This document shows positions 1 to 2,615 of a stretch of 41,324 nt of DNA, piece after piece. Below the pieces are notes generated by a model. That model saw only the letters and a list, made by a program, of their open reading frames with translations. It searched no databases and was not told where the DNA came from. Both the position numbers and the translations under genes were made by a program. Source of the stretch: Sedimentibacter sp. SX930 (GTDB taxonomy: Bacteria; Bacillota; Bacilli; Lactobacillales; Aerococcaceae); assembly GCA_002155105.1 (NCBI GenBank), contig MUZD01000016.1, positions 1 through 41,324 on the forward strand, written 5' to 3'. Every line of letters begins with the position of its first letter. Positions within the stretch are counted from its first letter, which is position 1.

Positions 1-96
1 AGTGGAAGCAAGCTTCCATAGAAAAGACCGTTCGACTTGCATGTATTAGGCACGCCGCCAGCGTTCGTCCTGAGCCAGGATCAAACTCTCATGTAA
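1..96 (-). rRNA. rrs: 16S ribosomal RNA, 5' end (partial)
   Basis: The reverse complement of 79-89 is AGAGTTTGATC, followed by the universal 16S 5' sequence through the CTCAGGACGAACGC and CGGCGTGCCTAATACATGC blocks. Only the first 100 or so bases are inside the window; the gene continues off the left edge. The mature 5' end is placed about seven bases before AGAGTTTGATC, as in other bacterial 16S genes, so position 96 is approximate. Confidence 0.97.
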
Positions 97-292: not shown

Positions 293-321
293 ATAATATC
301 ACGGCTCCGACACTCCGTCAA
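293..321 (-). promoter_or_regulatory. rrn promoter, proximal (third of three)
   Basis: On the minus strand TTGACG (316-321), a 17-base spacer, then TATTAT (293-298). It points at the 16S gene and is the promoter nearest to it. Confidence 0.75.
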
Positions 322-385
322 GCCTTTTCTGAAAGTTTTTCAGAAGCAATATCGGCTTGCAGATGCGTGGATCAGCAACTTTTAT

Positions 386-414
386 ATAATATCACGCTCT
401 AAATCGCATGTCAA
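386..414 (-). promoter_or_regulatory. rrn promoter, middle (second of three)
   Basis: On the minus strand TTGACA (409-414), a 17-base spacer, then TATTAT (386-391). The -35 is perfect and the spacing ideal. It lies 93 bases upstream of the proximal promoter. Confidence 0.8.
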
Positions 415-462
415 CAATTTTTTCAAATCATTTCAAAGCCGATTCTGGCGGACAACTTCTAT

Positions 463-491
463 ATACTATCATCGCAGCCGAATGCTGTCAA
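463..491 (-). promoter_or_regulatory. rrn promoter, distal (first of three)
   Basis: On the minus strand TTGACA (486-491), a 17-base spacer, then TAGTAT (463-468). It lies 77 bases upstream of the middle promoter. All three share a TTGAC(A/G)-N17-TA(T/G)TAT design. Confidence 0.78.
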
Positions 492-642: not shown

Positions 643-1488
643 TTGGATAAAAAAATTATTTTTTTGGATATTGATGGTACTTTGGTGACGGATGATGGTT
701 GGGTTCCCGCATCCGCTGCGGACGCATGCAGACAAGCCCGCTTGAATGGACACGAAATTTATTTGTGCACCGGCCGGTCAAAACCGGAAATCTATGATTT
801 CATCATGGAAATCGGCTTTGACGGCATCATCGGCGCTGGCGGCGGCTTTGTTGAGCTGAATGATGGAATGTTGTACCACAAAACGGTCCCAGCCAGCGAA
901 GTCAGGCGGATGGTGGATTTCTTCAATCAGCATAGCGTTGACTTTTACTTGGAATCAAACGGCGGTCTGTTCGCCAGCGAGAATTTCCTGCCGCATGTGG
1001 AACGCTGCATTTACGGGGATATCGACAACGATCCGGATGCCCGCAGACGCAAGGAAGAGAATCCTCATCCCTTTATCGAGGGATTGATCTACGGTGAAGA
1101 GGATCTGTATAAGACTGATGTCAATAAAGCCTGTTTCCTTCAGAGCGACAAACTTTCATTCGCACAGATCAAGGCTGAATTCGAAAATGCTTTTGATACG
1201 ATCCAGTGCACCGTGCCTCAATTTGGGGATGACAGCGGCGAACTGATGGTACCAGGCGTACACAAAGCGACTGCAATCGAAGCGTTATTGATACACCTGA
1301 ACTTACCCAAAGAGCGGACGATCGCGATTGGAGACGGCTTGAATGATTTGGAGATGTTCGACTATTGTGCGGTGGGCATCGCTATGGGGAATGCCAAGGA
1401 AGAATTGAAGGCTGTCGCGGACCATGTCACGAGTTCGGTGGATGAAGATGGTCTTCATCAGGCATTCCGTACTTTCGGGCTCATCTGA
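643..1488 (+). CDS. Cof-type HAD-IIB family phosphatase
   Basis: A 281-residue cytosolic hydrolase of the haloacid dehalogenase superfamily, subclass IIB (Cof type), which usually removes phosphate from sugar phosphates or similar small metabolites. The nucleophile motif DIDGTL (Asp9, Asp11) is at the N terminus and the metal-binding GDGLNDLEM motif is near residue 230, with the large cap domain between. Length is normal. The start is a TTG directly after an in-frame TGA at 640-642, so no longer form is possible; the upstream GAAAGTGAG is a weak ribosome site. It is divergent from the rRNA operon and alone in its transcription unit. The substrate cannot be read from sequence. Confidence 0.9.
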   Translation: MDKKIIFLDIDGTLVTDDGWVPASAADACRQARLNGHEIYLCTGRSKPEIYDFIMEIGFDGIIGAGGGFVELNDGMLYHKTVPASEVRRMVDFFNQHSVDFYLESNGGLFASENFLPHVERCIYGDIDNDPDARRRKEENPHPFIEGLIYGEEDLYKTDVNKACFLQSDKLSFAQIKAEFENAFDTIQCTVPQFGDDSGELMVPGVHKATAIEALLIHLNLPKERTIAIGDGLNDLEMFDYCAVGIAMGNAKEELKAVADHVTSSVDEDGLHQAFRTFGLI

Positions 1489-1526: not shown

Positions 1527-1563
1527 TCTTCATAGTTTCTTCATACTTGAGTTTTAATATAAG
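1527..1563 (+). promoter_or_regulatory. Direct-repeat promoter of the candidate sRNA
   Basis: TCTTCATA occurs twice (1527-1534 and 1538-1545), 11 bases apart, i.e. one helical turn, where a -35 box would be. It is followed by overlapping -10 candidates TAATAT (1555-1560) and TATAAG (1558-1563). Tandem repeats with 11-bp spacing just ahead of a -10 are typical of OmpR/PhoB-type response-regulator promoters, including those of streptococcal CiaR-controlled sRNAs. That a response regulator binds here is inference. Confidence 0.45.
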
Positions 1564-1569
1564 TGTAGG

Positions 1570-1665
1570 CCAATCACAAACAATCTTTTTTTCAATTTCT
1601 TTACTCCTCCAAAGTAAAGAGCAACTCCTTTAGGGCTGCCTGATAACTTCAGGCAGCTTTTTTTT
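1570..1665 (+). ncRNA. Candidate trans-acting small RNA with anti-Shine-Dalgarno motifs
   Basis: A stretch of about 96 bases between the HAD gene and proB. Seen directly: an AU-rich 5' tail; a 7-bp perfect hairpin (1598-1604 with 1614-1620) whose loop holds TCCTCC; a single-stranded linker containing ACTCCTTT; and a 9-bp perfect Rho-independent terminator. Both C-rich motifs are complementary to ribosome binding sites (GGAGGA, AAAGGAGT). This layout resembles LhrC of Listeria and the csRNAs of streptococci. No open frame with a ribosome site was seen. It could instead be only the 3' end of the HAD mRNA, or an attenuated leader of proBA. Confidence 0.45.
1635..1665 (+). terminator. Rho-independent terminator
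   Basis: Stem GCTGCCTGA (1635-1643) with TCAGGCAGC (1649-1657), 5-base loop, then eight T. It ends the candidate sRNA and any HAD read-through, and isolates proBA. Confidence 0.85.
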
Positions 1666-1799
1666 GCTATATCTTAATTTTTTCGCCATTCCATGATACT
1701 ATATGAAGTAATACCTCGCTGGATGCGAGCTCTGCAACACATAAAAAAACTATTCTTTCTATAGATGAAAAAAATCAAATCGTAAACGGGGATGTGCAC

Positions 1800-2615
1800 A
1801 TGGAACCTATTCGCAACAAAATATTGGACTGCAAAAGGATCGTCATCAAAATCGGCACAAGTTCTTTGATGCTGGCCGATGGATCCGTCAACTACCAAAC
1901 TTTCGACAGGCTTGCTTATGTCTTGACTGTTTTGCGCAATCAAGGCAAAGAAATTGTCTTGGTGTCATCCGGCGCAATCGGAGTCGGGCTCAACCGCCTG
2001 AACCTGCCGCATCGTCCGAAAACCATCCCGGAACAACAAGCCGTCGCTTCTGTGGGGCAATCCGAGCTGATGAACCTCTACACCCGCTTTTTCTCGCACT
2101 ATAACCAGATTGTGGGGCAAATACTCATGACCTTGGATATCGTGCAGTTCCCGGAAAGCCGCAGGAATGCCGTAAACGCCTTCGAACAGTTGTTGAAAAT
2201 GGGCATCATCCCGATCGTGAACGAGAATGACGCTGTCTCCGTTGAAGAACTGGATCACCTGACCAAATTCGGGGATAACGATCGCCTTTCTGCAACCGTT
2301 GCGGAGATCATCTCCGCCGACCTGCTGATCATGCTTTCCGATGTCCCAGGTTTTTATGATAAAAATCCGATGGCGCATCCGGATGCCGTCCTCTTCCACA
2401 CCATTCATGCCGTCACGGCCAAGGAAATGGCTTTGGCTGGCGGGAACGGTTCGAAATTCGGGACCGGCGGCATGGCAACAAAACTGAAAGCTGCCAAACG
2501 CATCCTGAAGAACAAGCAACAAATGGTATTGACGCAAGCCACAGACCCGACCGTATTGTTCGATATACTGGCCGGCAAAGAAATTGGAACCTATTTTGTG
2601 AGGGAAGACAAATAG
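1800..2615 (+). CDS. proB: Glutamate 5-kinase
   Basis: Phosphorylates L-glutamate to gamma-glutamyl phosphate, the first step of proline synthesis in the cytosol. The protein opens with the amino-acid-kinase signature [12 protein letters not shown] and carries SSGAIGVGL, the NENDAVS and FGDNDRLSA substrate/nucleotide segments and [12 protein letters not shown]. It is 271 residues, so it lacks the C-terminal PUA domain of E. coli ProB, as in many Lactobacillales. An in-frame GTG at 1794 is possible, but the GGGG at 1788-1791 is better spaced for ATG 1800. It sits 13 bases ahead of proA in a two-gene operon. The upstream terminator isolates it from the HAD gene. Confidence 0.96.

Follow-up and report, generated by a model that had tools for sequence, protein, structure and literature searches.

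A conserved multicopy small RNA family of the Lactobacillales and a candidate PieR-type regulator of its promoters

Comparative evidence indicates that a short intergenic segment (1527-1665) of the window, the 41,324-nucleotide stretch of contig MUZD01000016.1 from Sedimentibacter sp. SX930 that we analyzed as a whole, is a genuine, conserved, and multicopy small RNA (sRNA) gene. Judged from the sequence of the locus and its relatives, the predicted RNA belongs to the same kind as LhrC and the csRNAs, as a variant for which another regulator is predicted. We consider it probable that the family comprises multicopy trans-acting sRNAs that are activated by a PieR-type response regulator and cover ribosome sites through two CU-rich motifs.

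Anatomy and conservation of the locus

A sequence-only reading of the window had proposed a small transcription unit between two genes, and the repeat, -10 hexamer, hairpin, linker, and terminator were all found where it had placed them (Table 1). The direct repeat TCTTCATA, read directly at 1527-1534 and 1538-1545, has an 11-bp period; the promoter has a -10 hexamer and lacks a -35 element at the normal distance, and the RNA start was set from the -10 to within about ±2 nt. RNA 1570-1666 folds into two hairpins at -26.5 kcal/mol, compared to a shuffle mean of -11.9 (z -5.6; 0/200 shuffles as good), and the terminator consists of a 12-bp stem within 1632-1660, the loop UAACU, and a U-run. The CU-rich hairpin loop of the earlier reading was thus recovered, but with other letters, CCUCCAA in the fold instead of TCCTCC. 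There is no ATG, GTG, or TTG in RNA 1569-1665, a tRNA search of the window gave none, and no Rfam model matched the 1527-1665 locus at gathering scores. The downstream kinase gene is presumably that of the glutamate 5-kinase ProB, judging by its position before an aldehyde-dehydrogenase-family gene. The start of the window (1-96, minus strand) falls within the 5′ end of a 16S rRNA gene, and three strong tandem sigma-70-like promoter matches lie behind this gene on the same strand (293-491, minus strand); tandem sigma-70-like promoters are expected for rRNA operons.

Table 1. Features of the sRNA locus and its two neighbors (window coordinates)
Feature	Position	Strand	Basis
Response-regulator-type box, TCTTCATA-GTT-TCTTCATA = TTCATA-N5-TTCATA	1527..1545	+	Read directly; conservation
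-10 hexamer TAATAT, 9 nt past the second repeat	1555..1560	+	Read directly
Predicted sRNA, about 97-99 nt	1567..1665	+	Fold; covariance model R1 match at 1569-1664
CA-rich leader without structure, then U-run	1569..1596	+	Fold; common to relatives
Hairpin 1, 9-bp stem	1597..1621	+	Fold; stem covariation
Hairpin 1 loop CCUCCAA, inside anti-Shine-Dalgarno motif ACUCCUCC	1606-1612	+	Fold
Linker CAACUCCUUU, single-stranded, second anti-Shine-Dalgarno motif	1622..1631	+	Fold
Intrinsic terminator hairpin and U-run	1632..1665	+	Fold; terminator prediction
Upstream neighbor, HAD-family hydrolase (Hydrolase_3)	643..1488	+	
Downstream neighbor, amino-acid kinase	1794..2615	+	

The sequence-only reading had staked its case in part on conservation of the C-rich motifs and the hairpin, and this part was borne out. 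At 10 orthologous loci of this copy (copy 1) within the genus, hairpin 1 is fully invariant, followed by the box (84% of positions), linker (83%), leader (79%), and terminator (70%). The corresponding values for the rest of the locus are 24% for the spacer before the box, 44% between box and -10, 50% for the -10, 58% for the 55 nt past the terminator, 35% for positions 1721-1800, and 51-55% for the flanking coding ends. CTCCTCC occurs in 98 and ACTCCTT in 88 of 104 distinct family sequences, both counts being biased because some of the sequences were fetched by these motifs.

Compensatory changes in the stems of these 104 sequences, together with the copies at other loci described below, agree with the earlier view that the locus encodes a trans-acting kind of sRNA. 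The predicted pairs are formed in 98.9% of 1545 cells, and 426 cells carry double changes, whereas shuffles gave 122 and sliding of the partners no more than 72, a count flattered by an alignment that was fitted to the structure. Changes on both sides were observed in 12 of 15 pairs, and sliding the partners abolishes the signal. The bulk of it comes from the terminator helix, in which all eight counted pairs changed on both sides, and at the base of hairpin 1 an A-U pair is replaced in step by C-G. RNAalifold on a MAFFT alignment (A1) recovered just four terminator pairs because MAFFT had misaligned the stems, and it was superseded by a hand-set structure on a second alignment (A2).

Distribution of the family and its relation to known sRNAs

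The source genome contains a paralogue (C29:184161-184262) that is 82% identical over the aligned core. DNA matches were found in 15 of 41 sampled genomes, including 10 of 12 from the source genus (the source genome counted) with 2-3 copies each; the two genomes of the genus that gave no DNA match are 51% and 63% complete. A degenerate pattern run over 84,980 species genomes returned 56 stretches, which by record title come only from Trichococcus, Vagococcus, Desemzia, Pisciglobus, Carnobacterium, or Enterococcus timonensis. The covariance search of related genomes that the sequence-only reading had proposed, for which we built a model (R1) from 18 sequences, matched at least 80 of 246 Lactobacillales genomes in at least 26 of 64 genera, with at least 13 matches in one Vagococcus-type genome; these counts are lower bounds, since at most 16 candidates were scored per genome. 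In a class-wide draw, R1 matched 7 of 250 genomes, and all seven belong to the order of the source genome. Some copies form tandem arrays with a 195-bp spacing.

Several observations concern individual copies. Three small Vagococcus fluvialis plasmids carry unannotated sRNA copies (L387:4590-4691, L388:1376-1477, and L389:4398-4499), which adjoin a helix-turn-helix gene and a replication-initiation gene and have box scores of only 9-10. At L011:6400-6500, a third copy that a sister species (L041) carries is absent, with both flanks and its terminator still in place, which suggests a clean loss. A short variant that lacks hairpin 1 and keeps the leader, the linker, and a 10/12 box at -40 was found at L390:1501-1582 and L391:1051-1132, in records labeled Enterococcus phage (PQ520085 and OR846601); both records are marked unverified and could be host DNA, and we make no claim of a phage-borne form. 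By eye, a TTTTCTTAAGAAAA-like palindrome lies upstream, beyond the box, in several Vagococcus, Carnobacterium-like, and Pisciglobus copies (L025, L027, L040, and L057).

Among known sRNAs, the family is best read as a distant relative of Ref84 of Enterococcus and LhrC of Listeria. In a permissive search, the Ref84 model (RF02846) matched the window copy end to end (model positions 1-87) at 36.4 bits and the paralogue at 45.1 bits, both below the gathering score of 52. Ref84 and the window RNA have in common the order of leader, U-run, hairpin, ACUCCUUU linker, and terminator. In contrast to the window family, the four Ref84-type copies that were examined (Enterococcus-like) have a hairpin without CTCCTCC and no box at -40, their top box scores being 7-10 at other positions. 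For E. faecalis sRNA_109 and E. faecium sRNA_093, a likeness to Enterococcus sRNA 084 has been noted, and the function is given as unknown (PMC7724050). Weak Rfam matches of nse_sRNA, RcsR1, and RT-2 at the locus fell far under their own cut-offs and were discarded. A literature search on Ref84 returned no paper on a window-type RNA by title, and a search combining LhrC, Enterococcus, Vagococcus, Carnobacterium, and Trichococcus gave none among the matches listed. The RNA had been put forward as possibly undescribed, a label that calls for qualification, since a relative, Ref84, is already in Rfam; the copies of the source genome lie below the Rfam cut-offs of both Ref84 and LhrC.

The likeness to LhrC, also raised by the sequence-only reading, stands and may go beyond analogy, as weak model matches run both ways. 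The LhrC model (RF00616) scored above its cut-off in 4 of 17 genomes, all of family f7, which we therefore take for Listeria or close kin. Against window-family copies it gave 38.9 bits (E 2.3e-4) for one in a family f2 genome (G040) and E 0.011 for one in G009 of the source genus, the best score staying under the gathering cut-off of 110 bits, and at the sRNA sites of the source genome it gave no match at E up to 1. Conversely, when R1 was applied to f7 loci totaling 32.5 kb, nine of ten LhrC copies came out at the top (E 0.005-0.043), followed by an unrelated match at E 0.31 and the tenth copy at E 5.3. LhrC is multicopy and controlled by a two-component system, as is predicted for the window family, and the two share a layout of CAACAA leader, UUUUCAU, hairpin with a CU loop, AACUCC(C)UUUU linker, and terminator. 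They differ in that LhrC has three CU-rich (UCCC) sites, one of them in the terminator loop, whereas the window RNA has two and the terminator loop given above; some CTCC, TCCC, or TCCT occurs past the linker in 23 of the 104 distinct sequences. We read these comparisons as pointing to a possible remote homology of LhrC and the window family.

The csRNAs of Streptococcus resemble the family in being sRNAs under a 6-N5-6 direct-repeat box (PMC8186281). As the earlier reading had anticipated, the repeat itself differs: the csRNA CiaR box is TTTAAG-N5-TTTAAG (PMC8186281), and the element upstream of the window RNA is TTCATA-N5-TTCATA. None of the 14 listed genomes of family f4, which we take for Streptococcus, was matched by R1. 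The comparison with the csRNAs covered the box and this R1 search.

Promoter box and candidate regulator

With all scores counted, 70 of the 96 unique copies have their best TTCAYA-N5-TTCAYA box beginning at -40 relative to the RNA start; of the 57 best boxes that score at least 10, 51 begin there. A score of 12/12 was reached by 25 copies and a score of 11 by 19, compared to 0 and 1.25% of shuffles; many of the 96 copies are close kin and hence not independent. In the 39 copies outside these 57, most of them Vagococcus-type, the best box does not exceed 9, a score that shuffles attain easily, and several Vagococcus copies carry an extra half-site near -62, two 11-bp steps upstream. The -10 occupies -14 to -9, with T at -14 in 96%, A at -13 in 94%, and T at -9 in 95% of the copies. 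Within the 3.13-Mb source genome, the exact box plus -10 occurs at two sites, both preceding sRNA copies, and the reversed control gave 0. The wider search for such sites that had been suggested yielded 28 in 13 genomes of the genus (reversed control, 0), of which 23 are sRNA copies (one of them, L099, decayed), one is the promoter of a PieR-type regulator gene (G009), and four lie elsewhere. A mismatch-tolerant repeat search of the source genome was rejected as too loose (62 matches versus 30 in the control).

Eleven OmpR-type regulators are encoded in the source genome, and one of them (C34:42849-43559) adjoins a HAMP/HisKA/HATPase sensor kinase. Its top NCBIfam match is PieR (NF041209) at 306.5 bits, with the runner-up at 209.5, and this score is below the curated cut-off of 450, so that we refer to it as PieR-type. 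The promoter of this gene reads TTCATA-GAAAT-TTCAAA, 9 nt, TATCGT, an 11/12 box with the same spacing as at the sRNA, and the G009 orthologue has the exact box plus -10 pattern. Boxes of 12/12 were also found upstream of the PieR-type genes of G022, in which the sRNA is present, and G019, in which it was not found, in a locus scan that left 4 of 30 loci unscored because no start was found. A perfect box precedes the PieR-type gene of a Listeria-like genome, and in several lineages a box lies upstream of the regulator on the opposite strand.

The specificity of this association was examined by scoring 250 nt upstream of the OmpR-type regulators of the source and five further genomes; 19 of 76 loci were dropped because the gene was not located by motif, which left 57. 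A box scoring at least 11 precedes five of six PieR-type genes versus one of 51 other OmpR-type genes (Fisher p 8e-6; two of the six share one genus), and the four boxes scoring 12 all lie before PieR-type genes. The sixth PieR-type gene belongs to a V. fluvialis genome and follows a small membrane-protein gene in an apparent operon; a perfect box lies at -460, ahead of the first gene of the operon and 9 nt from TAAGAT. Four other Vagococcus-type genomes have an 11/12 box at -460 to -470, outside the 250-nt range covered by the shuffle control. The small membrane protein encoded before the PieR-type gene in Vagococcus-type genomes (L231, about 462-801) appears SdpI-like by eye. Of 40 PieR-type genes scored as a further set, which shares three members with the specificity test, eight reach a score of at least 11 within 250 nt (1.25% of shuffled windows), and 32 have no such box, including 13 of 15 in family f2.

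The regulator is present in 79 of the 80 sRNA-bearing genomes, the exception being 89% complete. The hypergeometric p of 9e-9 makes this co-occurrence look stronger than it is, as related genomes are not independent. The regulator occurs in 118 of 246 genomes in which the sRNA was not detected, and therefore it is not sRNA-specific.

The same sRNA and mechanism could instead be activated by a LisR-type regulator (the L160 orthologue), as LhrC is in Listeria, which we regard as unlikely. A regulator of the source genome is 78% identical to one of a Listeria-like genome that we take to be LisR, and one L160-type gene (L344) has an 11/12 box upstream. Over six L160-type genes, however, the best upstream boxes score 10, 11, 9, 10, 9, and 8 at varying positions, and none of the perfect boxes in the specificity test precedes a gene of this type. 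LhrC, possibly a distant relative as the mutual weak matches suggest, needs LisR, yet mapping placed the LisR-responsive element farther upstream than -53 (PMC4132741), whereas the box of the window family is at -40/-29. Inspection by eye showed that the half-sites of most lhrC promoters differ in sequence and lie one 11-bp step further upstream, although one promoter type (L283) has an 11/12 box at -40. The PieR-type regulator is our preferred candidate.

The best NCBIfam family of the regulator is that of PieR of the Listeria PieRS system, as noted, at a score under the model cut-off. PieRS controls the PrsA secretion chaperones in Listeria, and the products named in the abstract of that work are proteins only (PMC12234432). 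A literature search for YclJ with TTCATA found nothing. The PieR-type regulator is presumably related to YclJ of Bacillus subtilis, the site of which is TTCATA-type. The YclJK system is described as of unknown role, with a regulon that is up at low oxygen (PMC7961091).

Proposed mechanism and biological meaning

In the mechanism that we favor, the PieR-like OmpR-family regulator encoded beside the sensor kinase would bind TTCAYA-N5-TTCAYA at -40, a step with strong comparative support, and would activate a promoter that has a -10 and lacks the usual -35; in several lineages, the promoter of the regulator itself carries the same box. The predicted product is an RNA of about 97 nt that opens with a CA-rich leader, continues with a hairpin presenting CCUCC and the unpaired CAACUCCUUU linker, and ends in a terminator. 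Through its two CU-rich motifs, this RNA would pair with Shine-Dalgarno sequences in several mRNAs and keep translation from starting, as suggested by the motifs and by LhrC, which binds a ribosome-site region via CU motifs (PMC4132741). Such blocking would follow activity of the two-component system; envelope or secretion stress is a plausible guess at the signal, given that PieRS controls PrsA chaperones in Listeria (PMC12234432). Several near-identical copies would raise the dose and may merge inputs. By its sequence features, namely its own promoter and terminator, unpaired CU motifs, and copies elsewhere, the RNA falls in the class of trans-acting anti-Shine-Dalgarno sRNAs. A target search with AAAGGAGTTG-N2-9-ATG in 13 genomes (30 loci read, gene names by eye) returned a recurring beta-glucosidase-like gene, an XRE-like regulator, and a 25-codon frame; ordinary Shine-Dalgarno abundance suffices to explain these matches, and no target is claimed. 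The 25-codon frame (L300, about 1501-1580) is leader-like, has the Shine-Dalgarno AAAGGAGTTG, and is recurrent in the genus.

It is improbable, and more so than activation by LisR, that the RNA owes its main activity to the conserved CA-rich leader, or serves as a sponge or binds protein, with the CU motifs secondary. Within the genus, the invariance of the leader nearly equals that of the linker, and the short variant in the two phage-labeled records dispenses with hairpin 1 while retaining leader, linker, and box; on the other side, the predicted fold leaves the motifs of the hairpin loop and the linker unpaired, and both are conserved across genera, subject to the ascertainment bias mentioned above, and the corresponding motifs of LhrC bind its target (PMC4132741). 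A role in cis, as leader or attenuator of the proBA-like operon that follows, which the position of the sRNA upstream of the proB-like gene in the same direction might suggest, is highly improbable, as a strong terminator ends the sRNA about 130 nt ahead of that gene and copies with the same body are found at further loci, some of them in tandem arrays or plasmid-borne.

Tentatively, and at somewhat less than even chances in our judgment, LhrC, Ref84, and the window RNA may be branches of an ancient Lactobacillales superfamily that kept an anti-ribosome-site body while swapping regulators. The PieR-type regulator would have taken over in the relatives of Trichococcus, Vagococcus, and Carnobacterium, with the sRNAs as a main part of its regulon, at least 13 copies, and small plasmids as accessory doses. 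If PieR-type control of the family holds, CiaR, LisR, and the PieR-type regulator would represent three lineages in which look-alike multicopy anti-ribosome-site sRNAs are attached to three two-component systems, and the family would be an extreme case of sRNA copy expansion, with some copies plasmid-borne. It would suggest a testable function for Ref84 of Enterococcus, and it would make testable both why such an sRNA output recurs and what role the poorly understood PieR/YclJ systems play.
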